Assembly (NCBI GenBank): GCA_903887415.1
Contig: CAISPO010000059.1
Location: forward strand, 62,001-126,000
DNA: 64,000 nucleotides
Reading direction: 5' to 3'
Source of the DNA: an uncultured Bacteroidota bacterium
Lineage (GTDB): Bacteria; Bacteroidota; Bacteroidia; Chitinophagales; Chitinophagaceae
Part shown: positions 31,789 through 50,829 of the stretch, piece by piece
Numbering within the stretch: the first letter of the stretch is position 1
How the letters are laid out: each line of letters starts with the position of its first letter
The notes under the pieces: model-generated
Database searches by the model: none
The model's input: the letters and a program-made list of their open reading frames with translations, nothing else
What the model was told of the DNA's origin: nothing
Translations under genes and position numbers: made by a program

Positions 31789-32151
31789 ATGCGCAGCCCC
31801 AAACAGTTAACTATTGATATAATTAAGAAGCCTCCGGTATCATTCCCGGTTATTGGTTTGTTTCACGTCCTTTGGTTTTTTTATATCATTTGGAGCGACC
31901 GGCATGAGCCTTTCCCGGATGTTGTTTGGCTGGAAGCGCTATGGATGCTTGGCTATACTGCTTTCTGGATTGCTGCCTGCGACCTGCGGAAATGGGGCGC
32001 CACGGGTTATATAGCACTTACCTTGCTGAATGCATCGCTTTATCTGGCTATCAGGAACGGTAAATTGTCGCGGGATTATATGAGCGACATGTTTTTGATC
32101 GATGGCTTGTTCAGTGTATTCCTGGTCTTTTACTTCAAAAGGTTCAAATAA
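31789..32151 (+). CDS. Small four-helix membrane protein
   Basis: A 120-residue protein from the ATG at 31789; the frame is open further up, to a TTG at 31744. Four hydrophobic segments are visible: VIGLFHVLWFFYIIW, ALWMLGYTAFWIAAC, GYIALTLLNASLYLAI and FLIDGLFSVFLVFYF. I recognise no named family. Its TAA stop overlaps the ATG of the next gene by one base, so translation is likely coupled to that of the BtuF-like protein. That may suggest a membrane partner for it; this is inference only. Confidence 0.7.
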   Translation: MRSPKQLTIDIIKKPPVSFPVIGLFHVLWFFYIIWSDRHEPFPDVVWLEALWMLGYTAFWIAACDLRKWGATGYIALTLLNASLYLAIRNGKLSRDYMSDMFLIDGLFSVFLVFYFKRFK

Positions 32152-32939
32152 TGAGCAACCGTGTATTCACGGATATGATCGGTAACGAGGTTGCCATAGG
32201 CTTCCCTCCAGTGCGTATCATATCATTGGTTCCCTCACAAACGGAATTGTTGTACGATCTCGGACTTGGTGTCGAAGTTGTCGGTATTACTAAGTTTTGC
32301 GTACACCCTAATGAATGGTTCAGGAACAAAAAGCGGGTAGGGGGCACAAAGACATTGCACCTCGATATTATCAGGTCGCTTCAGCCTGACCTTATTATTG
32401 CCAACAAAGAAGAGAATTCGAAAGAGCAAGTGGAGGAACTGGCTGCTGAATTTCCAGTCTGGACGAGCGATATACAATGCCTGGAAACTGCACTGGCTAT
32501 GATAACACAGGTAGGGCAGATCGTTGACAGGGGTACACAAGCCGAGGCCCTGGTAAATGAAATAAGACACGGTTTCAGCAATTTAGCCGCTGCTGCAAAG
32601 CCTACGCGGGTAGCCTACTTCATCTGGCGAAATCCCTGGATGTCGGTTGGGGGCGATACATTCATCAGTGATATGATTGAAAAGATAGGCTGGATCAATG
32701 TACTGGCCGACCAAAAGCGTTATCCGGAAATAAACCCGGATAGCCTAAAAGGAAAAGATATTGATCTTGTACTTCTTTCATCCGAACCATATCCTTTTAA
32801 AGATATTCACATTGCAGAGATAAAGGCCATCTTGCCGGGTGTTGAAGTCATGCTGGTGGATGGCGAAATGTTTAGCTGGTACGGAAGCCGAATGAAGGAA
32901 GCGCTGGATTATTTCAAAATATTAACTGAAAGTAAATAA
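32151..32939 (+). CDS. BtuF-like helical-backbone metal/cobalamin receptor without signal peptide
   Basis: A 262-residue protein of the ABC-transporter substrate-binding family with a helical backbone (BtuF/FhuD type). Motifs: RIISLVPSQTELLYDLGLGVEVVGIT, GGTKTLHLDIIRSLQPDLIIANKEENSKEQVEEL, AYFIWRNPWMSVGGDTFISDMIEKIG and LLSSEPYPFKDIH. Known members are periplasmic and bind cobalamin, heme or siderophores. This protein begins directly with MSNRVFTDMIGNEVAIGFPPVR and has no signal peptide or lipobox, so it may be cytosolic unless exported by another route. No ABC permease or ATPase gene is nearby. It is translationally coupled to the small membrane protein before it. Confidence 0.82.
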   Translation: MSNRVFTDMIGNEVAIGFPPVRIISLVPSQTELLYDLGLGVEVVGITKFCVHPNEWFRNKKRVGGTKTLHLDIIRSLQPDLIIANKEENSKEQVEELAAEFPVWTSDIQCLETALAMITQVGQIVDRGTQAEALVNEIRHGFSNLAAAAKPTRVAYFIWRNPWMSVGGDTFISDMIEKIGWINVLADQKRYPEINPDSLKGKDIDLVLLSSEPYPFKDIHIAEIKAILPGVEVMLVDGEMFSWYGSRMKEALDYFKILTESK

Positions 32940-33080
32940 AAATACTAATTTTATGGTAGTGTCCTAATTTGAATGTTAAAACGTCTTAACAAAATCAGAA
33001 AATCAGAAAACACTCAAATATAGCCGAATTGTGCAATTGATGCTAAGAATATTACTTTAGTATTCTAAACATTAAATCGC

Positions 33081-33509
33081 ATGGATTACATATCATTTTT
33101 TGAAGGGTTAGTATTAGGTTTAATAGCGTTAGATATGGAAAGGTTTTTAAGGCTTTTAAAGGTTGCATTGTGCTGCATAACTGCTGGGTATATAATGCTA
33201 ATTACACATCCGCACATCTATATTTGGCATCACGAGGACTATAACAAATGGGCTAATTTCAATCGTTTTTTATTTCATTCAGAATATGGATGGCAATCAG
33301 TCTTGCTAATAGCTGTAGTGTATTCTTTTTTTTATGTGGTTCTATATAAAATAAGTGACGACCTGTTGGCTAATGTTATCAGTAAAAGATTGATTCGATT
33401 TACACAATCTGTTACTAGCATTCAATTAGCTACAGGAATTGAACATCTCATAAAAATTATGGTTCGATGGTTGTGGCGAGCGAGTTTGATTTCGTATGAA
33501 AAAAAATAA
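33081..33509 (+). CDS. Hypothetical membrane protein (islet)
   Basis: A 142-residue ORF with three hydrophobic stretches (FFEGLVLGLIALDM, LLKVALCCITAGYIMLIT, WQSVLLIAVVYSFFYVVLY) and a basic, amphipathic C-terminal part. No family recognised. It lies at the left end of a visibly AT-richer stretch (about 32.95-36.28 kb) whose codon use differs from the neighbouring metabolic genes. The next ORF begins 30 bp downstream on the same strand. Confidence 0.5.
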   Translation: MDYISFFEGLVLGLIALDMERFLRLLKVALCCITAGYIMLITHPHIYIWHHEDYNKWANFNRFLFHSEYGWQSVLLIAVVYSFFYVVLYKISDDLLANVISKRLIRFTQSVTSIQLATGIEHLIKIMVRWLWRASLISYEKK

Positions 33510-33538
33510 ATGACGATAAAATACGTACCTTCTTAGAA

Positions 33539-33820
33539 ATGAAAAAAATTTTATGCTCTCTACTTATCGCCTCTATTCATGCTATTCTCTGCTCTCTTGT
33601 ACTGAATAAGGTGTTTGGTTTCAATACCGTTGTGCTGTGGGGTATATTAATTACTATAGGGTTGATTATTATTGTCGCTGGTTACTGTTTAATTTTAATG
33701 CCGTTTATTAAACAGGTATACCATATAATCGCTTCTGCTGCGAAACACGAAGTAAATCAAATTATTGATGAACGGAGCTTACCCATTTCTTTGTCACAGC
33801 CGAATCGGCAACAATCATGA
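33539..33820 (+). CDS. Small hypothetical membrane protein (islet)
   Basis: A 93-residue ORF starting MKKILCSLLIASIHAILCSLV, with two hydrophobic helices (residues about 4-25 and 32-55) and a polar tail. It is 30 bp downstream of the 142-residue ORF and probably shares its transcript. No family recognised. The sequence just after its stop resembles that before the upstream ORF (see findings). Confidence 0.5.
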   Translation: MKKILCSLLIASIHAILCSLVLNKVFGFNTVVLWGILITIGLIIIVAGYCLILMPFIKQVYHIIASAAKHEVNQIIDERSLPISLSQPNRQQS

Positions 33821-33913
33821 TTTGAATGTAAAATACGTTAACCCAAAATTTGCAGCCATACCCTGTTAAAGTAAATTAACAATGAGCCGAGAAATTTGTA
33901 TAGAAATAATAGT

Positions 33914-34561
33914 CTAATTTGCGATAAGTAAATCAAAGTCAGCCGTTTCTTGGAGACAAGCAATTATCTTAGAGCCGATTACTCTCCTAAACCCAGTATC
34001 GTCCATTTTCTTTATCTGGCGCGGCTCGGCAGTTTCATTTGTAGTAATCAAGAATTCAAAATGCCAATAATTAGTCATTGTAGGCTTATGAACGATGCGT
34101 AGGGTGAATTCAAATTTCTTGTTTGGTTTATCGGGAGGGTTATTAAAGTCTCCAACGAGTCCGTCTACGTCTACAGCTTTGAAAAAATATAGCTGCCTGT
34201 CTTCGCGATATTCCCATTCTTCATTTTCAGGAACCAAACCGTCTATACCTACCTGCCAAGGAGCAAGGTATCGACTTCTCATTTCTTTGTCGCAAACAAA
34301 ATTTATTTTCAAATCTTTCGGGTGTGACGATGGAATTTTATTTGTAGAAAAACCAGCTAACGAGGCTACATCGACTGCGGATGAACTCAATCGACCATCT
34401 TCGTCTTTTAGTTCAAATTCAGGTTCCACCCATTTACCCAACCTGTCCGATGTGTCAAATGCATGTATGAATTTGAGGTCCTTTCTTGGAATCAGATGTT
34501 GCGGGTAGTAGTTAATTTGAGGTTGTTCTTTCTCAGTCTCGCTAGTAACTGATTGTTGCAT
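33914..34561 (-). CDS. Unrecognised protein, third gene of the islet operon
   Basis: A 215-residue ORF from the ATG at 34561, which overlaps the end of the upstream gene by 20 bp and so suggests coupling; an earlier in-frame start would deepen the overlap. The product is soluble, with alternating charged and aromatic segments and a likely beta-rich core (LKINFVCDKEMRSRYLAPWQVGIDGLV, FEFTLRIVHKPTMTNYWHFEFLITTNE). It has no signal peptide, no nucleotide-binding loop and no nuclease or other catalytic signature I can see. Function unknown. Confidence 0.6.
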   Translation of the reverse strand: MQQSVTSETEKEQPQINYYPQHLIPRKDLKFIHAFDTSDRLGKWVEPEFELKDEDGRLSSSAVDVASLAGFSTNKIPSSHPKDLKINFVCDKEMRSRYLAPWQVGIDGLVPENEEWEYREDRQLYFFKAVDVDGLVGDFNNPPDKPNKKFEFTLRIVHKPTMTNYWHFEFLITTNETAEPRQIKKMDDTGFRRVIGSKIIACLQETADFDLLIAN

Positions 34562-35282
34562 AGGATTCTTGATTCTTAGCCACAGTTTTCGCAATGAGAG
34601 AAAACAAATATTCCATCGACCCATAGTGGGATTCTATGTTAACTCGTGATTGATAAATTTGCAAAGTCGCCTCAATATCGTTCTCATCTTTTCTGTCGTA
34701 ATCGTAAAACACATCGAACTTAAACTCAAGGCTGCTGTTGTCGACAAAAAGTCTAAAAAACAAGCTATTGGCTCTCGTAAGTGAAATAAAGCACCTATCA
34801 AAATGAGAATTAGATAAAAGTATGAGGCTTCTAACCTGTCCAAGTTTTTTTAGAATACTCTCAAAATCCGAATTACCTAAAACACTCTTTTTTGAAAAGA
34901 AATTGGACTCAGCGCCATGAAGCATCATGGCGTTACCTAGATTTATCTTTTGATAATTAACCCAGTCTTTGTGCGCGATAGTAAAATCACTTTTTTTAAA
35001 ATCGATATTGTCAAGGTTAATTTCAATGTTACTCAATTCATCATCTCTTTTTCTAACTAACGATGGCGATTGCATTTGCGACAATCCCTTGTAAAATATC
35101 TCAGACGGAGTGATGCTGGTCGTAGTACCCATAGCCACGCTTCCGAATGCCATAACGGCACCAACCGTAGCGCAATACGGCAAATAAGACCACTTAGCAA
35201 TAGTCTTATGACCATCACCATTGTAACAAGGCATTGCTATTGGCAAAACCGCCGCCGTCTTTTGTTCTATAGTGCTTACCAT
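34542..35282 (-). CDS. Unrecognised protein with a hydrophobic segment, second gene of the islet operon
   Basis: A 246-residue ORF. Near the N-terminus a moderately hydrophobic stretch (YLPYCATVGAVMAFGSVAMG, about residues 33-52) may be a membrane helix preceded by a short polar leader. The remaining 190 residues look soluble and mixed alpha/beta, ending with EYLFSLIAKTVAKNQESYATISY. No motif recognised. It starts 6 bp after the stop of the first gene and overlaps the third by 20 bp, so the three are almost certainly one transcript. Confidence 0.6.
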   Translation of the reverse strand: MVSTIEQKTAAVLPIAMPCYNGDGHKTIAKWSYLPYCATVGAVMAFGSVAMGTTTSITPSEIFYKGLSQMQSPSLVRKRDDELSNIEINLDNIDFKKSDFTIAHKDWVNYQKINLGNAMMLHGAESNFFSKKSVLGNSDFESILKKLGQVRSLILLSNSHFDRCFISLTRANSLFFRLFVDNSSLEFKFDVFYDYDRKDENDIEATLQIYQSRVNIESHYGSMEYLFSLIAKTVAKNQESYATISY

Positions 35283-35288
35283 ATATTG

Positions 35289-35960
35289 TTAGTTATAGAT
35301 GGACATGATGTCTGAACAAAAAAATTGATATTCTTCATAGTCATTTATGCAGCTCATAATTTCATTTTTATTTTTCACGATGTCTGTTTTCTCAATCACA
35401 TCAACATGAAAATTAAAAATAAATGCTACGCCTTCGTTAACTGGTCGTGTTTCTCCTGTACCCAAAACATACTGTTGAGTTATGATTGGCTTAACGTCAA
35501 GTTTTAATCTTGATTGTTTAAATTCCCGGCTACAATAAACTCCATAAGCACAATCTTCATCGTTAAAAAACTTTGAAAACAAACTAATTGAATCGCTATA
35601 AAAGTATTTTTTAGTCATTTTGTGAATTGTACTGTTTTCGGTCGGCACGACGTAATGTAAATTTAGTCCGATTGCTGTAATGCAATTATCAATCAGCGGT
35701 ATCAACTTTTGTACTGCGGCTACTATCGAATTTCTGTTATTTGTTGGAGTTGACTCGGTAACGATAATCTGAAACTGGTTGACCGCAATATTGAGAATCG
35801 AACTAGTCACAATTGTCCCTCCAAAATCACCGATGAAAGGGACGCTAACAATTTCCTCTTCTTTTATAATTTGGTTCTTAATCATGAAGTGCTTGTCGAA
35901 AAAGCTAGGATTAAAAAATCCTACTAGGACGATATTTTGCACTTGAATAGACGATGACAT
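35289..35960 (-). CDS. Unrecognised conserved-looking protein, first gene of the islet operon
   Basis: A 223-residue soluble ORF. The pattern (IQNIVLVGFFNPSFFDKHFMIKN, then QFQIIVTESTP, then CITAIGLNLHYVV, then RLKLDVKPI) resembles a loose family of roughly 200-residue proteins I associate with unannotated genes in several phyla. I cannot name it and no function follows. There is no signal peptide, catalytic motif or ATP-binding loop. It heads the three-gene minus-strand operon and is preceded by a TAnnTTTG box and inverted repeats. Confidence 0.6.
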   Translation of the reverse strand: MSSSIQVQNIVLVGFFNPSFFDKHFMIKNQIIKEEEIVSVPFIGDFGGTIVTSSILNIAVNQFQIIVTESTPTNNRNSIVAAVQKLIPLIDNCITAIGLNLHYVVPTENSTIHKMTKKYFYSDSISLFSKFFNDEDCAYGVYCSREFKQSRLKLDVKPIITQQYVLGTGETRPVNEGVAFIFNFHVDVIEKTDIVKNKNEIMSCINDYEEYQFFCSDIMSIYN

Positions 35961-36282
35961 GTTCTAAAGATTTTATTTCGACGTTGTTTTGCTTAGGACG
36001 TTGAGACTAGAAATTGAAGGGTTGTTCTCAACGACTACGTCGTCAAAAATAATGATTATTAGTACAATTATGAGAAATTAATTAAAATTATAAACTGAAT
36101 TTGTGACATTGATAACAGATATTTACTCATTTTCATTTATTTATAGGCGCGCTCTTCGATTTAATAGCTATTTTTTTACAGATAACGAGTTAATGTATTT
36201 CTGCCAATAGAATGTATGAATGAACTTGTGACCATCGACAACTTTTACAACGAATTTGTATCTCTTAATAGAAAATAATGTG
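35961..36282. other. AT-rich intergenic region upstream of the islet operon
   Basis: This 322-bp gap holds the leader and candidate promoter of the islet operon (35999-36051). From 36052 to 36282 I see only AT-rich sequence with no convincing ORF, RNA or repeat. Confidence 0.5.
35999..36051 (-). promoter_or_regulatory. Candidate promoter with operator-like inverted repeats
   Basis: On the minus strand TATTTTTG (36051-36044) is an exact TAnnTTTG -7 element. Directly after it lies a perfect dyad, ACGAC-TAC-GTCGT (36031-36043), covering the predicted transcription start. A second perfect inverted repeat, CGTTGAGA (35999-36006) with TCTCAACG (36026-36033), has arms 19 bp apart in the leader. No -33 TTTG is evident. 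The dyads would fit a repressor site or an RNA hairpin; neither is proven. Confidence 0.4.
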
Positions 36283-36600
36283 TCATTTAGCCTGTTCCTT
36301 TATCATCTCCGTCAATCTCCTTATGATAGTCAGCTTATGATTAAATCCCCTCATGCTCATGACGGTATTTACGCTTCGGGTTGCAAAAACAACTGCATTT
36401 GAGCGGGCATCTTTTATCTGCACGTATCCTTTGAATGAATGCGTACCTATGCGCTCAATTTTGTAGTCTACCACGTAATCCGCATCCTCTTTTCGGTCAA
36501 CTACTCGCCAATACCCCCAGTAGTTTAAGTCATCATTCCCATGCGCAACTGCACCCTTATCAACAGATTCTACAGCCAGGCGAGAACTTTTGCCCCCATA
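36283..36600 (-). pseudogene. 3' fragment of an unrelated gene fused behind the O-antigen ligase
   Basis: The frame ending at 36283 encodes about 90 C-terminal residues that look like a real protein end: GNDDLNYWGYWRVVDRKEDADYVVDYKIERIG, GYVQIKDARSNAVVFATRSVNT and a basic helix LTIIRRLTEMIKEQAK. Upstream of about 36600 the same frame is only the shadow of the O-antigen-ligase gene. The 5' part of the original gene is therefore missing. The piece resembles small lipoprotein-like proteins that carry one beta-sheet domain, but the family is not named. Its stray position next to a truncated gene points to a deletion or recombination junction near 36575-36600. Confidence 0.6.
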
Positions 36601-37759
36601 TACCTGTAGAGCCCAGGCCGACCCCCATGGGGTGCGACACAATGAATGGTTGTATCCGCTTCTGGTTTATTTTTCTTACTTTATAAGATGCATCGTCCGA
36701 TGGCTTGAATGCACTCTGGAAGCGGTATAATGTGCCATTCGAGGTAGGTATGAAAATGAGCACTACCATGATAGCCGCCGCTGCTGCGCCGATAAAAAGT
36801 ATCTTTTTTGAGAATTTCAGTATGCCGTAAAGTATCATAGCTGCCGGTACCAGTACAAATGCACCCCGTGTGCCTGAATACAGCATATTGCTGAGGTAAA
36901 AGCAAATGAGCAGGAACAGGATTATTTTTTTCTTTTTAGAGATCGGCCCGGTCATCAGGCCGATGCAGAGCAGGCTGGTTACCGCCATGGTATAGGCAAA
37001 CACTACAGGGTCTGAGAATATGGAAAACTTACGCCATACCCCGCCGATGAACAGAAGCAATTCAATATTCGGGTCTGAATGGAGATAGGCTTCTTCGAAC
37101 GGGAAAAACCCAAAGTATTGCTGCTTGGTAGCATACACTGCGCCAAATAATGCAAGCCCCAGCCAGAGCTTTAACAGGAAACGAATAAACTCCTTGGTGC
37201 GGATATTGTACAGAAAGACAAAATACATCACCATTACCAGTGCTACAGTTCTCACTGTATAAGCCCATGCAGTAGTTGATGCGGCGACCGGGTTGCCCAA
37301 CTCCGCTAAATTATAAAGTATCCAGATGATGATGATCGCGGTAACAGGTCCTTTAAAGATCGCCCAGTCTTTTTTTCGCTTTTGCTGTATGAATATATTA
37401 AGTACCAGCAGCACCTCCATGCCATCCATGAGTGTGCCCAGCGGGAAATTGACAATATTCATGCGGAGAATCCACATAATGAGGTAAGACACGGTAAGCA
37501 CTATCGTCATGCCCACTTTGGGGAATACAATAAGGCAATAAAGGACAGGTAAGCCAACGGTCATTGCCAACACCAAAGCGCCCACTATAATGCCTGCCTT
37601 GGCAGTTGCCACCGCTATCAGCGTAGCTAACGCAAGTATTAAAAAATACCCCAGCGGGGTATTCATTTTTTTTATTAAAAAAAAGTCACGCATCCGGCTG
37701 CGAAGCGAGGGGCTTGCAGGCTCAATTTGCACGACCGGGACTGCCTGTGTTTTGCTCAT
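36560..37759 (-). CDS. O-antigen ligase/polymerase-like membrane protein, C-terminus truncated
   Basis: A 399-residue protein with about ten membrane helices of the Wzy/WaaL (O-antigen ligase) superfamily. The large periplasmic loop and the late block FLIGGVWRKFSIFSDPVVFAYTMAVTSLL, SGTRGAFVLVPAAMILYG and HPMGVGLGSTGIWGQKFSPG are family-typical; the last normally precedes one or two further helices. Here the reading frame ends five residues later (CRIC, stop), so the C-terminal helices are missing. The gene is the last of the coupled polysaccharide operon, its ATG overlapping the stop of the 50-residue ORF. If still functional it would polymerise or ligate glycan at the periplasmic face; loss of the end makes that doubtful. 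Confidence 0.8.
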   Translation of the reverse strand: MSKTQAVPVVQIEPASPSLRSRMRDFFLIKKMNTPLGYFLILALATLIAVATAKAGIIVGALVLAMTVGLPVLYCLIVFPKVGMTIVLTVSYLIMWILRMNIVNFPLGTLMDGMEVLLVLNIFIQQKRKKDWAIFKGPVTAIIIIWILYNLAELGNPVAASTTAWAYTVRTVALVMVMYFVFLYNIRTKEFIRFLLKLWLGLALFGAVYATKQQYFGFFPFEEAYLHSDPNIELLLFIGGVWRKFSIFSDPVVFAYTMAVTSLLCIGLMTGPISKKKKIILFLLICFYLSNMLYSGTRGAFVLVPAAMILYGILKFSKKILFIGAAAAAIMVVLIFIPTSNGTLYRFQSAFKPSDDASYKVRKINQKRIQPFIVSHPMGVGLGSTGIWGQKFSPGCRIC

Positions 37760-42820: not shown

Positions 42821-42852
42821 TTTGTGGGTAACTTTATTTTTCATTAAATTTG
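42821..42852 (+). promoter_or_regulatory. Promoter of the giant surface-protein gene
   Basis: TTTG (42821-42824) and TAAATTTG (42845-42852) are separated by 20 bp, matching both Bacteroidota promoter boxes exactly. Transcription would start near 42860, leaving a leader of about 137 nt before the ATG at 42997. In the remaining 42624-42996 gap I see no other feature. Confidence 0.7.
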
Positions 42853-42996
42853 CTACCAAAGTGTATTATATTAAGTGGGATGGCCGAAATGCCCGCTATG
42901 TCTATGATTATGCGTTTTTCTTCGGTAGCAGGGAAGCAAGTGGGCGGTGTATATGTTAAAGAGTCTTATTTAGTTTATTTTTTGAAAAACCGGTTT

Positions 42997-45900
42997 ATGA
43001 ATAAAATTTTTCTGCTGCTTGTTTGCTGTTTCCTGAGTGTGGCTGCATCTGCAACTGTAACGATCTATCCTGAAAGCATTTCTACGCCTTATGGAGGAGC
43101 AACGCAGACTGTTTGCCAGAACAGCTCAAATGTAGCGACTTTTGTTTTCTACTCGGCTTGCGGCACATCAACTGCCGGGACCCCGTTAACTATTACCCCT
43201 AACTGGTATTTTAACGGGGTTATAGTATATACCGGTGCGCCAGTTACTATATCAGCGTCAGGTGGAAACATATTGCTGCCGGCAGGGGTTTTTACTTATA
43301 CGGCATCGGGTACATTTTCAGGGGCCAGCGGCCTTTACTGTGAGCTGGACTGGGCCGGTGCCTCTCCATGTGCCGGTGTTACAACAGTGCAAAGCGCTTC
43401 ACCTATAATAAATGTTGGCTTATCACCTACAGCTATTACGGGCGCAGCGGCGGTTTGTACCGGGCAGGCTACAACCTTAAATGCCACCCCTGCGGCTGGT
43501 GTATGGACCAGCAATAATACCTCTGTGGCAAGTATAGCATCCATTAGCGGAGTTGCTACGGGAAACACAGCAGGCACTGCGGTGATAAGCTATACACTTG
43601 GTTCGGGATGTGCTTCTACCCTGGTCTTGACCGTTGACCAGACGCCTGCCGGCATTACAGGGCTCATAAACCTCTGCACGAATACGATCAATACTATGCA
43701 TGACGGTACGGCAGGCGGTATATGGACCAGCAGTGACATAACTGTAGCTACCATTGGTTCGGCAACCGGAACCATGACAGATTTTACTCCAGGTATCACA
43801 ACGATCAGTTATACTTTGAATACAGGCTGCCAGTCAACGATCGCTGTAACCGTGAACCAGGCGCCATCTGTAATTACCGGCACCAGGTCGATTTGCCTCG
43901 GCGACCAAACGACATTAACGGATACTTTGACTGGCGGTGACTGGACGAGCGGCGCACCCGGTTATGCAAGCGTAGTATTCAGCTCCGGCTTAGTTACCGG
44001 GAATACAGCAGGCACTGCCAGCATTACCTATACGCTCAGTTCGGGCTGTAATACATCTTCAGTCGTTACCGTGAATCCCCTCCCCGCAGCTATATCAGGC
44101 GTTGCCTCCGTTTGCGTAAATGGACTCACTATTTTGACAGATGCTACTTCAGGGGGGTTCTGGAGTTCCAGTAACAGTTCAGTTGTGAATATTGGCACTG
44201 GCTCTGCTTTTGCAGCCGCAGGTACTGCACAAGGGTATGATACTATCGTTTACCGGCTGAGTGTAACGGGATGTTCGCAGAGCAGGGTGGTGACCGTAAA
44301 CCCATTGCCAGCTTCTATAAGCGGTAATCTTTTAGTTTGCGTTGGGTTAACAACAGCCCTTACTGACAGCACAGCGGGCGGGGTTTGGTCCAGCACTCCA
44401 ACAAGTGTGGCGATTATCAATTCTTCAACCGGTGTTGCTACAGGGGAGGCTGCGGATACCAGTATAATTACTTACAAGCTGTCCACTGGCTGTAGCATTT
44501 CGGCAATTTTGACGGTGAACCCGCTCCCTGCGGCGATCACAGGGGTGTCTTCCGTATGCGTGGGGTCATCAACAACACTAAGCGATGCCAGCGCCGGTGG
44601 GACCTGGGGAAGCAGCGATCCGTTGGTCGCAACAGTTGTGTCTGGTTCCGGAGTCGTTACAGGGGTTAGTGCAGGAACAGCAATGATCACTTACACCCTT
44701 GCTACCGGCTGCATAAAAACATTTACGATTACCGTGTATTCTGTGCCGGTAGGTATTTCAGGCCCCACCAGTGTTTGTGTGTCCTCAACCATAGCGCTGA
44801 GTGACCCTACTTCAGGTGGTGTCTGGTCCAGCAGCATACCTACTGTAGCCAGTGTTCTAGGCACGGGCGTAGTTTCCGGCCTTGTTGCAGGCACAACAAC
44901 CATATCTTATAAAATAAGTGCAACCGGCTGTTATGCTGCATATGGCATCACCGTTAACCCATTGCCACTTGCTATTACAGGCACTCCGCGTATGTGCCAG
45001 GGGCAGGGCACAGTGCTTACAGATGTTACCACTGGCGGCACGTGGAGCAGCACCACGTTAAGCGTTGCAACGATAGATGGCTCCGGGAATGTAGCCGGCA
45101 TAGGTGCAGGTACATCAGTTGTCAGCTATATATTGCCAACGGGATGCCATGTGACTTCATTAATTACGGTTAATCCTGTACCCGCAGTTATTTCCGGCCT
45201 TTCGAGTGTTTGCTCCGGCTTAACTATATCTGTAAGCGATGCAACTTCCGGCGGCAGTTGGAGCATTACCAATACCTCAGTAGCTACTATTTCAGGCTCA
45301 GGAATTATTACTGGAGGCTTAACTGCCGGTACAGATACAGTGGTTTATACTTTGACGACAGGTTGTTTATCCTCTAAATCGATCACGGTAAATCCGCTGC
45401 CATCTTCAATAACGGGCACTGCTACTGTGTGCGTTGGGCTGACGACTCAATTGAGCGATGTAACAGGTGGCGGCTTGTGGACTAGCAGCAGCACAGCAAA
45501 GGCAACAGTTGATGGTGCCGGACTGGTTACCGGGGTAGCAGCGGGTACGGTAACGATCACTTATGCGTTGGGCACAGGCTGTTTAAAGACAATTGCCGTA
45601 GTCGTGAACCCAATACCCGCAGTCATTTCGGGGACTACTTTCGTATGTGCCGGCTCTACAACCAGCCTCAATGACGCGGTTGGCGGCGGTGGGTGGACGA
45701 GCAGTAATACCGCTGTAGCTACAGTTGTTCCATCCGGCATAGGCGTGGTAACCGGGGTTTCTGCCGGAACTACCACTATCAGCTATACTTTATCCACAAC
45801 TTGTGCCATATCTACGGTAGTAACCGTGAACCCCTTGCCGGCTGCGATTACCGGTACCCCGGCTGTTTGCGTAGGGCTGACGACATCGCTGACCGACGCA

Positions 45901-48900
45901 ACCGCAGGTGGCTTATGGACAAGCAGCAATACACTTGCTGCGACCGTAGGGCTGAGCACAGGCCTTGTTTCCGGTGTTGCAGCGGGAATAACAAATATTA
46001 CTTATACACTTGGTACAAATTGCAAGATATGGATTCCTGTTACCGTTGATCCTTTGCCGGCCGCTATTTCCGGCCCGGCCCAGGTATGCATTGGCTTTTC
46101 AATCACATTAGGCAACACTTCCACTGGTGGCACATGGTCCAGCAGCGATCCTACAATAGCTACAATAGCGCCGGGCTCCGGCATTGTTGTTGGCGTTTCA
46201 AGTGGAGTTGCCACCATGACTTATACACTTGCTTCGGGCTGCATACGTACCACTAATATTCTCGTTAACCCATTGCCTGCTACAGTATTGGGCCCAGGTA
46301 ATGTATGCCAGGGTACGAGCGTAACATTAAGTGACCCTGATGCAGGTGGCACATGGACCACCAGTAGTACCATCATCGCAACTGCTGGGGCAGGTACAGG
46401 GGTTATTACCGGTGTTAGTCCGGGAACTGTAAATATTACTTATACGTTAAGCACCGGCTGTTATACAACAAGCAATATGGTTGTCAACCCTGCTCCTCCG
46501 TCTATTACCGGGATTACTTTTGTTTGCCCTGGGCTTACAACTACATTGAGCGATGGCCTGTTTGTGGGAACATGGAGCAGCGCTAATACCCTGGTTGCGA
46601 CGATAGATGCAGGCGGCGTTGTTACCGGTGTGGCTGCCGGTACTGCTATCATCAGTTATACATCAAGTTTCGGCTGTTATAAAACAATTACTATTACCGT
46701 ACATCCGCTACCATCACCAATTACAGGAAGTAGGTATGTTTGTGCCGGATCTACTTCCATTTTGGGCGATGGCACACCGTCGGGGGCATGGAGCAGCAGT
46801 AATCCTGGCGTAGCTACGATTGCTGGCACAGGCCTTGTTACAGGCATCGCTTCTGGTACAACTACAATGACCTATTTATTAACAACGGGCTGTTATCTTA
46901 CTACTGTAATGACAGTAAACCCGATACCGGGAGCAATATTGGGAAATAATAATGTGTGTCTGGGAGCTTCTACAACGTTAAGCGATCTGACGTCCGGTGG
47001 CACGTGGACAACTAATAACGCTTCTATTGCCGCGGTAGATTCGCTAACGGGTGTTGTAACAGGCGTTACTGGCGGCTTAACTACGATCACTTATACGCTG
47101 CCCACAGGTTGCAGGCAGACTCTTAGCTTTACTGTAAATGTACCACCAGCGCCAATAACCGGTACTACTTTCCTGTGCGAAGGGTTAACGACTACTTTGC
47201 ACGATGCGGCCGCAGGTGTATGGAGCAGTGCCAATACAACCATCGCTACAATAACCAGCGCAGGTGTGGTAACCGGGGTGAACATAGGTACTGCAGTTAT
47301 TTCTTATACATCCGGCGCAGGGTGCCCTGCAACAATTTTTGTGACAGTTAACCCTTACCCAACAGCAATACTCGGGACTTTAGGTGTTTGTACCGGACAA
47401 TCGGTTACATTGACTGATGCAGTAACCGGCGGAGAATGGACCAGCAGCAACCCTGCTAAAGCTACCGTTGGCTTGCTTACCGGGGTAGTAACCGGAACCG
47501 GAGCCGGTACTGCTACCATTACTTATACTATGGGTACAGGCTGTAATATCTTGGCTACCGTAACCGTAAACCAAACCCCTGTGGCAATTGTCGGCCTGTC
47601 CAATGTTTGTGTTGGTTCTACCATATTTCTCACGGATGCTACCTCCGGTGGCACATGGAGCAGCGCGGATGCCACTATCGCAACTGTTGGAATTGGTACC
47701 GGGCATGTTACCGGGATAGACACAGGTAGCGTAACTATTAGCTATACTTTGGGGCAGTGCAGTGCTTCAACCGTAGTATTGGTCAATCAGGGGCCTTCCC
47801 TCATTTATAACACCATAACGCCGGGCTCGCTTGTTTTATGCTCTGGCACATCAACTGTTTTAGCTGATACGGTAGGCGGCGGTACCTGGAGCAGCAGTAA
47901 TACATCTGTAGCCACTGCGGGTCTCAGCACAGGCATTATCAGTGGTATGTCTCCCGGCACTGCTACTATTTCTTATACACTCGGTTCCGGCTGTACCACT
48001 AATGTTACTATAACCGTAAATTCCAACCCGGGAATAATATTAGGCGCTGACAATGTATGCCCTAATGCATCCATAACCCTGAGCGATGCAGTGCCAACCG
48101 GTACATGGATAAGCGGGGATCCTACCATTGCCAGCGTTACATCGGGAACAGGCATCGTTACCGGGGAGTCGGCTGGTACAGTTGTCATCACTTATTCCCT
48201 AGGTATAGGTTGTACGGTTACAACGACCATCAATGTAAACCCTGCGCCGGGCCCGATAAATGGGGTGCTCGCAATGTGCCAGGGCCTGACAACAACATTA
48301 ACCGACATCACTCCCGGTGGTGTATGGACAAGCAGCCACCCGGCGATAGCAGCAATTGTTTTAAGCACCGGTGTATTATCTGGTATTTTGCCCGATACAG
48401 CCACGATCACCTATCAAATATTAGCAACCGGCTGCTTTGCGACGGCTATTGTAACCATCGACCAAAACCCGACAGCTATTATTGGCGTTACGAATACCTG
48501 TATGGGCTCAACGACTACACTTTCTGATGCCATTCCTCTTGGCTCATGGAGCAGCAACGATCTTTCTATAGCTAACATCGGTGCGGCGACGGGCGTTGCC
48601 AGTGGCGTTGATACCGGAATAACCACCATCACATATACATTGCCTACAGGGTGCTATACCACTACATTGTTCCGGGTAAATAATACACCCGTTGCAATCA
48701 CCGGAACCGGAGCAATATGTGCTGGAACTATCACTACATTAAGCGATATAACACCATTTGGCACTTGGATCAGCAGTGACCCTGCGGTGGCTACCGTTAA
48801 CTCCGTGTCAGGGGATGTTACCGGCTTATCTGCCGGAACAGCAACGATCACCTACCAGCTTGGCACTGGCTGTAATGCAACGTTCCAGATCACCATCAAT

Positions 48901-50829
48901 GCACTGCCTGCACCCATAATTGGCCCGTCTTACCTGTGCATAGGGTCCACGATATTTATGAGCGATGCCACACCAGGCGGCAACTGGAGTAGCAGTGATC
49001 CATCTGTTGCTACCGTTTCAGGGCCTGTCGGGGATGTTACAGGGGTGTCTGTGGGTATTACTTCTGTTACCTATATGCTTTCTACAGGTTGTTTCCTGAA
49101 CCAGTTGATAACAGTGAATGCTGACCCTACGCCAATAGTTGGCAATGCAATGATATGCGCCTTATATACAGACACTTTTACATCAACACCCTTGGGCGGC
49201 ATATGGACCAGCAGCGATACCTCCATCGCTACAGTGGACTCCTTTACCGGTGTGGTTACAGGACGTATTGTAACTGGAGTTACGTTCAAACTTGCGACAA
49301 TAACTTATACAACATTGGCCGGATGCAATGCTACAATAGAAGTGACGATAAATGCCATACCTGGCCCAATCACCGGCGTAAATCATCTTTGCGCAGGATC
49401 ATCAACCAACTTGTTTGATGCGACCGGTGGCGGCGTATGGAGCAGCAGCGATATTACGGTAGCGACGGTAGGTAGCAGCACTGGCACAGTAACGGCTATA
49501 CTGTCATCCGGCACAACTGTTATTTCCTATGCATTTGTTACATCGGGCTGCGCTGCTACCAAGGTATTCTCGGTTGACCCGGTTCCATATATCGGCCTTA
49601 TTCATGGTCCGTCTGCCGTATGTGTGGGTTCCACGATCGCGCTTAGTGATTCTGTCTCTGGTGGGGTATGGAGCAGCTCAAATACAGCGATGGGGACTGT
49701 TGGCTCTGTCAGCGGAATAACCGGTGGTATTGATGGTGGTGTTATCATTATCAAATACCTGGTTACGCAGCAATGCGGCCTGGATTCAACATCAACTACA
49801 GTAACAGTGAACCCGCTGCCATATGCCGCACCTATACACGGCTTTACACAAGTGTGCGCTAACTACAGCGCAGCAGTATCAGATTCGGTTGCAGGCGGTA
49901 TATGGACGAGTAACAACACAGCCGTTGCGACCATAGATTCATTCACAGGCGTAGTCACCGGAATAACGGGAGGGGAGGCATTTATTACCTACACTGTTAC
50001 CAACTCCTGCGGATCGGCATATGCCGTAGATTCGATCACGGTAAATGAAGCATTCGCATTTGGCCATATCATTACCTTCCCCGATACGCCTATGTGCTCC
50101 AACACTTTGTTCCAGAATTTCGGGGCGATGGCTGCAGCGCCTTCTGGCATCTATTACCACTGGAGTGCCACTAACGCCCAGATATTTGATACATCTCTGA
50201 ACGGGCAATACGCACTGGTTAGCTTTCATGATCCGGGGCTTGCTATTGTGAGGCTGTCTGCTGAGATATTGAGCTCGGGTTGCTCCATTTCAGATAGTTT
50301 TACTACCATCATAGGCTCCGGTGTTTCACTGAGCCCTCACGTACAATATTACCTTTCTGAATTTGTATGTACCGATAATACAGCAGACGCATACCAGTGG
50401 GGTTATGATAATATAGAAACGTTAGATTCAACAATCGTTCATGGCGCTACCAGCCAGGATTACTACAATCCTACACCGGATACCCTGGGCCGGAACTACT
50501 GGGTGCTTACCACTAAGAATGGCTGTACGCAGAAATCATATTACTCCTTCAATACCGTTACTTCGGTGGGTTCTGTGAGCCAAAGCTACGGTGTAACACT
50601 CTTCCCGAATCCTGCAGAGTCACTGGTGAACATTGAAGTGAATGGAGTGAACTGGTCGGATGAAGTAATTATGAAGATGACCGACATGCTTGGAAAAGAA
50701 ATACAGTCTGCGCCTATTACACAGGGCAGGGGCAGTGCAGATGTTTCTCAGTTGTCTTCCGGTGTTTATACCGTCATCATCACCAGGAATGGAGTACGGA
50801 TAGCCTCCAAAATGTTTGTGAAGAATTAA
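42997..50829 (+). CDS. Giant T9SS-secreted surface protein with 30 Ig-like (Big_2) repeats
   Basis: A 2610-residue protein from the ATG at 42997; the frame is open further up, but only here does a signal peptide begin (MNKIFLLLVCCFLSVAASA). An N-terminal beta domain of about 125 residues precedes 30 tandem units of 70-75 residues. The unit consensus is ITGxxxVCxGxTTxLxDxTxGGxWSSSNxxVATV...GxVTGVxAGTxTITYTLxTGCxxTxxVTVNPLP, a bacterial Ig-like group 2 fold. Nearly every unit has two Cys (VC and GC), which could form one disulfide per domain. After the repeats come about 170 residues with further Cys and aromatic residues, then a type IX sorting domain (VTLFPNPAESLVNIEV ... LSSGVYTVIITRNGVRIASKMFVKN). 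It is probably a long cell-surface adhesin or stalk. Own promoter and terminator. Confidence 0.93.
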   Translation: MNKIFLLLVCCFLSVAASATVTIYPESISTPYGGATQTVCQNSSNVATFVFYSACGTSTAGTPLTITPNWYFNGVIVYTGAPVTISASGGNILLPAGVFTYTASGTFSGASGLYCELDWAGASPCAGVTTVQSASPIINVGLSPTAITGAAAVCTGQATTLNATPAAGVWTSNNTSVASIASISGVATGNTAGTAVISYTLGSGCASTLVLTVDQTPAGITGLINLCTNTINTMHDGTAGGIWTSSDITVATIGSATGTMTDFTPGITTISYTLNTGCQSTIAVTVNQAPSVITGTRSICLGDQTTLTDTLTGGDWTSGAPGYASVVFSSGLVTGNTAGTASITYTLSSGCNTSSVVTVNPLPAAISGVASVCVNGLTILTDATSGGFWSSSNSSVVNIGTGSAFAAAGTAQGYDTIVYRLSVTGCSQSRVVTVNPLPASISGNLLVCVGLTTALTDSTAGGVWSSTPTSVAIINSSTGVATGEAADTSIITYKLSTGCSISAILTVNPLPAAITGVSSVCVGSSTTLSDASAGGTWGSSDPLVATVVSGSGVVTGVSAGTAMITYTLATGCIKTFTITVYSVPVGISGPTSVCVSSTIALSDPTSGGVWSSSIPTVASVLGTGVVSGLVAGTTTISYKISATGCYAAYGITVNPLPLAITGTPRMCQGQGTVLTDVTTGGTWSSTTLSVATIDGSGNVAGIGAGTSVVSYILPTGCHVTSLITVNPVPAVISGLSSVCSGLTISVSDATSGGSWSITNTSVATISGSGIITGGLTAGTDTVVYTLTTGCLSSKSITVNPLPSSITGTATVCVGLTTQLSDVTGGGLWTSSSTAKATVDGAGLVTGVAAGTVTITYALGTGCLKTIAVVVNPIPAVISGTTFVCAGSTTSLNDAVGGGGWTSSNTAVATVVPSGIGVVTGVSAGTTTISYTLSTTCAISTVVTVNPLPAAITGTPAVCVGLTTSLTDATAGGLWTSSNTLAATVGLSTGLVSGVAAGITNITYTLGTNCKIWIPVTVDPLPAAISGPAQVCIGFSITLGNTSTGGTWSSSDPTIATIAPGSGIVVGVSSGVATMTYTLASGCIRTTNILVNPLPATVLGPGNVCQGTSVTLSDPDAGGTWTTSSTIIATAGAGTGVITGVSPGTVNITYTLSTGCYTTSNMVVNPAPPSITGITFVCPGLTTTLSDGLFVGTWSSANTLVATIDAGGVVTGVAAGTAIISYTSSFGCYKTITITVHPLPSPITGSRYVCAGSTSILGDGTPSGAWSSSNPGVATIAGTGLVTGIASGTTTMTYLLTTGCYLTTVMTVNPIPGAILGNNNVCLGASTTLSDLTSGGTWTTNNASIAAVDSLTGVVTGVTGGLTTITYTLPTGCRQTLSFTVNVPPAPITGTTFLCEGLTTTLHDAAAGVWSSANTTIATITSAGVVTGVNIGTAVISYTSGAGCPATIFVTVNPYPTAILGTLGVCTGQSVTLTDAVTGGEWTSSNPAKATVGLLTGVVTGTGAGTATITYTMGTGCNILATVTVNQTPVAIVGLSNVCVGSTIFLTDATSGGTWSSADATIATVGIGTGHVTGIDTGSVTISYTLGQCSASTVVLVNQGPSLIYNTITPGSLVLCSGTSTVLADTVGGGTWSSSNTSVATAGLSTGIISGMSPGTATISYTLGSGCTTNVTITVNSNPGIILGADNVCPNASITLSDAVPTGTWISGDPTIASVTSGTGIVTGESAGTVVITYSLGIGCTVTTTINVNPAPGPINGVLAMCQGLTTTLTDITPGGVWTSSHPAIAAIVLSTGVLSGILPDTATITYQILATGCFATAIVTIDQNPTAIIGVTNTCMGSTTTLSDAIPLGSWSSNDLSIANIGAATGVASGVDTGITTITYTLPTGCYTTTLFRVNNTPVAITGTGAICAGTITTLSDITPFGTWISSDPAVATVNSVSGDVTGLSAGTATITYQLGTGCNATFQITINALPAPIIGPSYLCIGSTIFMSDATPGGNWSSSDPSVATVSGPVGDVTGVSVGITSVTYMLSTGCFLNQLITVNADPTPIVGNAMICALYTDTFTSTPLGGIWTSSDTSIATVDSFTGVVTGRIVTGVTFKLATITYTTLAGCNATIEVTINAIPGPITGVNHLCAGSSTNLFDATGGGVWSSSDITVATVGSSTGTVTAILSSGTTVISYAFVTSGCAATKVFSVDPVPYIGLIHGPSAVCVGSTIALSDSVSGGVWSSSNTAMGTVGSVSGITGGIDGGVIIIKYLVTQQCGLDSTSTTVTVNPLPYAAPIHGFTQVCANYSAAVSDSVAGGIWTSNNTAVATIDSFTGVVTGITGGEAFITYTVTNSCGSAYAVDSITVNEAFAFGHIITFPDTPMCSNTLFQNFGAMAAAPSGIYYHWSATNAQIFDTSLNGQYALVSFHDPGLAIVRLSAEILSSGCSISDSFTTIIGSGVSLSPHVQYYLSEFVCTDNTADAYQWGYDNIETLDSTIVHGATSQDYYNPTPDTLGRNYWVLTTKNGCTQKSYYSFNTVTSVGSVSQSYGVTLFPNPAESLVNIEVNGVNWSDEVIMKMTDMLGKEIQSAPITQGRGSADVSQLSSGVYTVIITRNGVRIASKMFVKN
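43432..50046 (+). repeat. Tandem Big_2-coding repeat array, 30 units of about 220 bp
   Basis: I counted 30 unit starts of the form (A/P/V/S)I(T/S/L/I)G....C between 43432 and 49831. The mean spacing is about 220 bp. Units differ clearly from each other at DNA level, so the array looks old and diverged, not freshly amplified. It lies entirely inside the surface-protein gene. Confidence 0.85.

Follow-up and report, generated by a model that had tools for sequence, protein, structure and literature searches.

What is a tightly packed set of three unrecognized genes doing in an AT-rich islet of a Bacteroidota genome, and does the set recur elsewhere? The question is raised by the window, a 64,000-nucleotide stretch of contig CAISPO010000059.1 from an uncultured member of the Chitinophagaceae, in which the relevant features are the following:

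35289..35960, minus strand: gene A, 223 aa, of the "FNPS" type; head of the module, in a slot that is filled by TIGR04255 in most relatives
34542..35282, minus strand: gene B, 246 aa; middle position, with recognizable sharing in its C-terminal part only
33914..34624, minus strand: gene C, 236 aa, or 215 aa from an internal ATG at 34561; the best conserved of the module
32940..36282, no strand: AT-rich islet containing the module and two small plus-strand ORFs

The preliminary description reported three minus-strand ORFs of 223, 246, and 215 residues in an AT-richer islet, and both observations proved sound when recomputed. With the 215-aa start of C, a 6-bp gap is followed by a 20-bp overlap, and with the 236-aa start B and C overlap by 83 bp; GC content is 0.350 in the islet (32940-36282) versus 0.447 in the window. 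In 500 mononucleotide shuffles of the islet, the longest stop-free frame was 186 codons, and A, B, and C are each longer. Their coding status is settled by the existence of homologs of A and C, together with an identical gene order elsewhere. The proteins do lack a recognizable motif, as previously noted: no credible match to A, B, or C was found in Pfam, NCBIfam, PADLOC, or PHROGs (no PADLOC-DB 2.0.0 model matches any of them), nor was a clear match to a housekeeping family.

The window's copy of the operon has a metabolic locus on one side and a polysaccharide cluster on the other, judging from ORFs read by eye, and the repeats flanking the islet are short and imperfect. Stretches were fetched around the gene at 32151-32939 in seven relatives from the genus, four of them with ORFs read; neither the islet genes nor the adjoining polysaccharide genes had a tblastn match in these stretches at 1e-6. 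The two small plus-strand ORFs of the islet (33081-33820; 142 and 93 aa), which are hydrophobic, were likewise unmatched in those stretches. Beyond the islet, an ORF in another frame (36283-36642) overlaps the 3' end of a membrane-protein ORF at 36560-37759, perhaps a polysaccharide gene that has been truncated or frameshifted; the polysaccharide region also contains a plus-strand ORF of 2659 aa at 42850-50829.

The recurrence of the set was followed chiefly through C. Profiles of this protein matched 2 of 395 genomes in a sample of the phylum, 7 of 395 in a sample of the class, 9 of 348 in the window's order, 2 of 79 in the family of genome G150, and one genome in each of two small orders (of 6 and 7 genomes); these counts contain the window's own genome and some repeats and amount to 17 distinct genomes. 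One locus, L015 (G669), was left out of the context count, as the contig stops a short way upstream of C. In 15 of the 16 judgeable loci, the A and B positions immediately upstream of C are occupied, with spacings that range between an overlap of 164 bp and a gap of 30 bp, and the three genes thus travel together. A was recognized by profile in 14 of these 15 loci, the window included, and in G599 (L020) by position only. A single exception, L119 (G1086), possesses a C without a recognized A or B and counts against the reading proposed below. Overall, the survey of gene neighborhoods found homologs staying together rather than scattered singly, and with no housekeeping match either, neither outcome named at the outset as refuting was seen; it is nearly certain that A, B, and C constitute a conserved three-gene module.

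Protein C provides the strongest thread between the loci. Its kinship across them is firm: a profile built solely from the members at L015-L020 and L022 recovered the six window-like C proteins at E-values of 1e-16 to 2e-29. The initial matches in G599 (E 1.8e-4), G787 (E 7.1e-4), and G1127 (E 1.2e-5) were weak. Among about 5.8 billion proteins, C has four homologs besides its own cluster, at 34-40% identity. C carries the motif H-x-P-x3-N-Y-W-H, and polar residues of the protein are conserved; it is read as a putative small enzyme or ligand-binding protein that would use the conserved H, P, N, W, and H. A collinear H-P-N-H alignment was also obtained between long C and short C proteins (hhalign P 0.0075, probability 5%); a single superfamily of all C-position proteins was nevertheless rejected, for short C ranked among the background by HMM search and the likeness is one of motif and position only. 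Structure prediction, one of the follow-ups initially proposed, yielded models for C (pLDDT 81, pTM 0.77) and for A (pLDDT 81, pTM 0.80), but neither had a convincing match among solved structures, and the TIGR04255, C, and B profiles had no match among PDB sequences up to E 0.1.

The relationship of B across loci is weaker than that of C. Its search against about 5.8 billion proteins found only a shorter version of itself. With leave-one-out profiles, seven of eight B proteins were the top match among 213 targets (L020's was not recovered), and the window's B came first at E 0.0024, ahead of a runner-up at 0.5. Within the order sample, B was identified by profile in five of eight loci, and the B position is unsupported by profile in L020, L118, and L120. 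The membrane helix suggested for the middle protein is borderline in the window's B, where the Kyte-Doolittle maximum is 1.43 over 19 residues relative to a usual cut-off near 1.6, and it is so far unsupported as a general feature of B. Several candidate relationships were considered and discarded. Among 10 relatives scanned with PADLOC, one B gave a sole weak match to GajB (E 0.00044) that was not taken as real; DUF4585 and other weak single-member matches to B relatives (best E 0.0012) were set aside; and the "NWD" type of B resembles B by motif and position only, a single family being unsupported by hhalign (P 0.37) or by HMM search.

Two kinds of A fill the head position. In the first eight judgeable loci, TIGR04255 occupies the A position above the cut-off in five (G700, G477, G433, G486, and G787), an FNPS-type A is found in the window and G150, and the A of G599 is without an assigned type; in the order sample, an FNPS-type A occurs in L113 and a TIGR04255-type A, by local profile, in six loci (L114-L118 and L120). 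TIGR04255 (NCBIfam "sporadTIGR04255"; phrog_5464) is an uncharacterized family whose genes share with the window's A the head slot before the same B-C pair, as well as an approximately equal length, a sporadic distribution, and residence in tight operons. The window's A nevertheless differs from it in sequence, with no match to the NCBIfam model at E up to 1; none of the seven members of A3 matches that model either. Comparison by hhalign gave P 0.59 with 6 sequences and P 0.023 (probability 2%) with 21, and HMM cross-searches scored at background level; by sequence the window's A is no member of TIGR04255, and homology between the two is not claimed. Also set aside for A were RNase HI (E 0.027, weak), NF047490 (a weak match of one relative, E 0.0023), and chance-level matches to McsB and AdoMetDC.

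The window's operon agrees with the TIGR04255-B-C module in its B and C, in their order, and in their tight packing (C by profile, E 7.6e-21; B at the value given above). Judged from sequence, A is exchangeable while B and C are kept, with two A proteins that lack detectable similarity sharing the same partners, and the window would represent a rarer variant with a different A protein. This A is sparsely distributed. It has four homologs besides itself among about 5.8 billion proteins, at 30-40% identity; within the window's genus it is present in 1 of 35 genomes, the window's own; and its profile matched 2 of the 395 genomes of the phylum sample, namely the window's own and G150. Genome contigs scanned with an alignment of A yielded two loci, in a Thermodesulfovibrionia MAG and an Ekhidna MAG, and A therefore crosses phyla. 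In G150, a run of A-, B-, and C-like genes lies beside enolase-like and glutamine-synthetase-like genes (named by reading). The C match in G150 crosses a TAA and a TIGR04255 match in G648 crosses a TAG, and these two copies may be broken, given the stop codons inside the matches. Upstream of the enolase-like gene in L021 lies a long run of repeats with KYPRQELNLPSEGRPAT-like units (positions 1134-2925).

TIGR04255 was found in 19 of 295 genomes of the class (20 matches) and in none of 14 control genomes. Subtracting three already known modules left 17 further contexts, all of which were fetched, and in 14 of these the TIGR04255 gene is followed by two more packed ORFs on the same strand, the spacings ranging between an overlap of 140 bp and a gap of 101 bp. 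The exceptions are L053, in which the contig ends after one follower; L047, with one tight follower; and L054, with none. The third genes of these modules differ. As classified by eye, they include a short "LSV" type, an "FQGD...TNTCD" type (L046, L059, and L025 from the plasmid collection), a HEPN-like type (L051), and others. The L051 protein belongs to phrog_5176, which we take, by reading, to be HEPN-like, and a second member follows A and B in L003, whose A is of the window's FNPS type. The two align with each other at E 5e-9, and Pfam gave no match to the L003 protein. The presence of this HEPN-like family in the third position of L051 and after B in L003 suggests an effector role for that position; the window differs in having C there, and its own A, B, and C match no PHROG. 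In L120 (745-3254), a TIGR04255-headed module has a further pair behind it, one gene B-like and the other short and C-like, resembling two module types in tandem, and L115 (6839-8868) contains two adjacent TIGR04255-type genes in opposite directions beside a 1119-aa ORF that reads as helicase-like.

Could such sets be toxin-antitoxin-like or selfish addiction cassettes that gather in permissive islands without anti-phage benefit? Their sporadic distribution (1 of 35 genomes in the genus for A, 9 of 348 in the order for C), mobile settings, variable third gene, and third protein read as HEPN-like all fit such a cassette. It is an unlikely explanation all the same, for a set of three conserved genes, at about 200 aa apiece, is larger than would be expected of a toxin-antitoxin-like cassette, and restriction genes, present in the flanks, were unseen among the families listed for a control set.

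For 24 loci (7 C modules and 17 TIGR04255 contexts, a set separate from the window, the order sample, and the named records), every ORF of 130 aa or more lying no farther than 3 kb away, 106 in total, was compared with the PADLOC models at an E-value limit of 1e-10. Among the 25 of 158 families listed, one MTase_III model matched 5 of the 106 ORFs, REase_III matched 2, and type II methyltransferase models matched up to 3, with the proviso that PADLOC models overlap and one protein may count under several. The control, a small one drawn from contig starts, comprised 106 ORFs, out of 160, on other contigs belonging to 20 of the 23 genomes; no restriction model appeared among its listed 25 of 31 families, each with one member, and its ORFs did match the PDC-S02, PDC-S05, PD_DExK, and mad3 models. 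Single proteins were also checked. In L116, the module has HsdR (E 3e-38) on one side and an HsdS-like gene, with HsdM (E 1e-79) next after it, on the other, and it runs on the strand opposite to the hsd genes; in L022, there is an overlap between C and a type III Mod gene (E 7e-57); and in L003, L017, L054, L055, L057, and L118, restriction genes named by reading are nearby. Similar 254-aa genes precede the module in L017 (3961-4725) and L022 (9321-10085), that of L022 being DUF3800 by Pfam and that of L017 by likeness.

Modules are also carried by mobile elements. The temperate Pseudomonas phage VW-6S encodes a TIGR04255-like gene (250 aa), a 105-aa gene, and a 198-aa "FQGD" gene between its CI repressor and integrase, and the same "FQGD" type stands behind a recombinase-like gene in the Phocaeicola plasmid record OY726032.1 (names by reading; the record is unannotated), the one match of plasmid searches with three other module proteins. 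To the early question of whether homologs sit near defense or mobile genes, the answer is yes for the operon's relatives and for TIGR04255-headed modules; defense genes beside the window's own copy have so far no support. Several observations count against a defense reading: A, B, and C have no known domain, no restriction gene was seen by eye among the window's ORFs at 26.5 to 64 kb, the window-type A and C found nothing in plasmid, phage, and viral collections, and L018, L019, and L021 are among ordinary genes as read. Restriction-modification genes nonetheless recur next to the modules, one of which resides in a phage, and the set is therefore probably an undescribed anti-phage system.

Two further explanations bear on these neighborhoods. 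The module might be an accessory of restriction-modification that regulates, assembles, or protects the enzymes rather than an immune system by itself, which would agree with its position inside the type I locus of L116, its overlap with the Mod gene in L022, and the methyltransferase matches among flanking ORFs. This is quite improbable, however, as the neighbors vary among type I, type III, and, by reading, type II systems, many modules have none, and the window and phage VW-6S copies are without restriction genes as read or annotated. It is equally improbable that the module has a non-defense role, such as stress response or cell surface modification, and simply moves with variable regions: the window copy does adjoin a polysaccharide cluster, and L020 is among glycan genes as read, but a location next to hsd and mod genes, or within the lysogeny region of a phage, would be unusual for such a role.

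Returning to protection against invading DNA, a defense role for the module is judged reasonably probable, and confidence is about evenly poised that the operon in the window represents one instance of a conserved A-B-C module which moves horizontally and whose likeliest function is protection from phages or other incoming DNA. The early suggestion of a new defense or stress system has thus gained a conserved module with restriction and mobile neighbors, and defense itself is still reached by inference only. In the proposed mechanism, recognition would fall to A, B would act as linker or switch, and the third gene would encode an effector that, once triggered, damages either the infected cell or the invader; this division of labor into sensor, link, and effector is itself doubtful. 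The module may serve as a back-up to restriction. A parallel, in how it would work only, is PrrC, an effector gene embedded in type I restriction loci, as the L116 module is likewise placed between hsdR and hsdS-hsdM. Differences from PrrC include the opposite strand of the L116 module, the lack of hsd genes in the window as read, and the fact that no PrrC-like protein was found.

No paper in the open literature that was searched contains the name "TIGR04255", with most subscription journals and preprints lying outside that search and a description elsewhere therefore possible, and broader searches returned nothing on the three-gene module in those parts of the open literature that they reached. 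It is tentatively proposed, with a little less than even confidence, that these loci form an undescribed modular immune family in which a recognition protein (TIGR04255 or the FNPS type) is combined with B as linker and with an exchangeable effector encoded by the third gene, the family being spread across bacterial phyla, in restriction islands and in a temperate phage, with the window as a rarer variant bearing the other recognition protein and with C possibly an effector of new fold. As the head of mobile three-gene modules near restriction systems, with third genes that differ, TIGR04255, a sporadic family without an assigned function, acquires a testable role. The pairing of two dissimilar types of A with the same B and C shows which parts of the module are exchangeable, and the modules add candidate immune systems for which PADLOC-DB 2.0.0 had no credible model.
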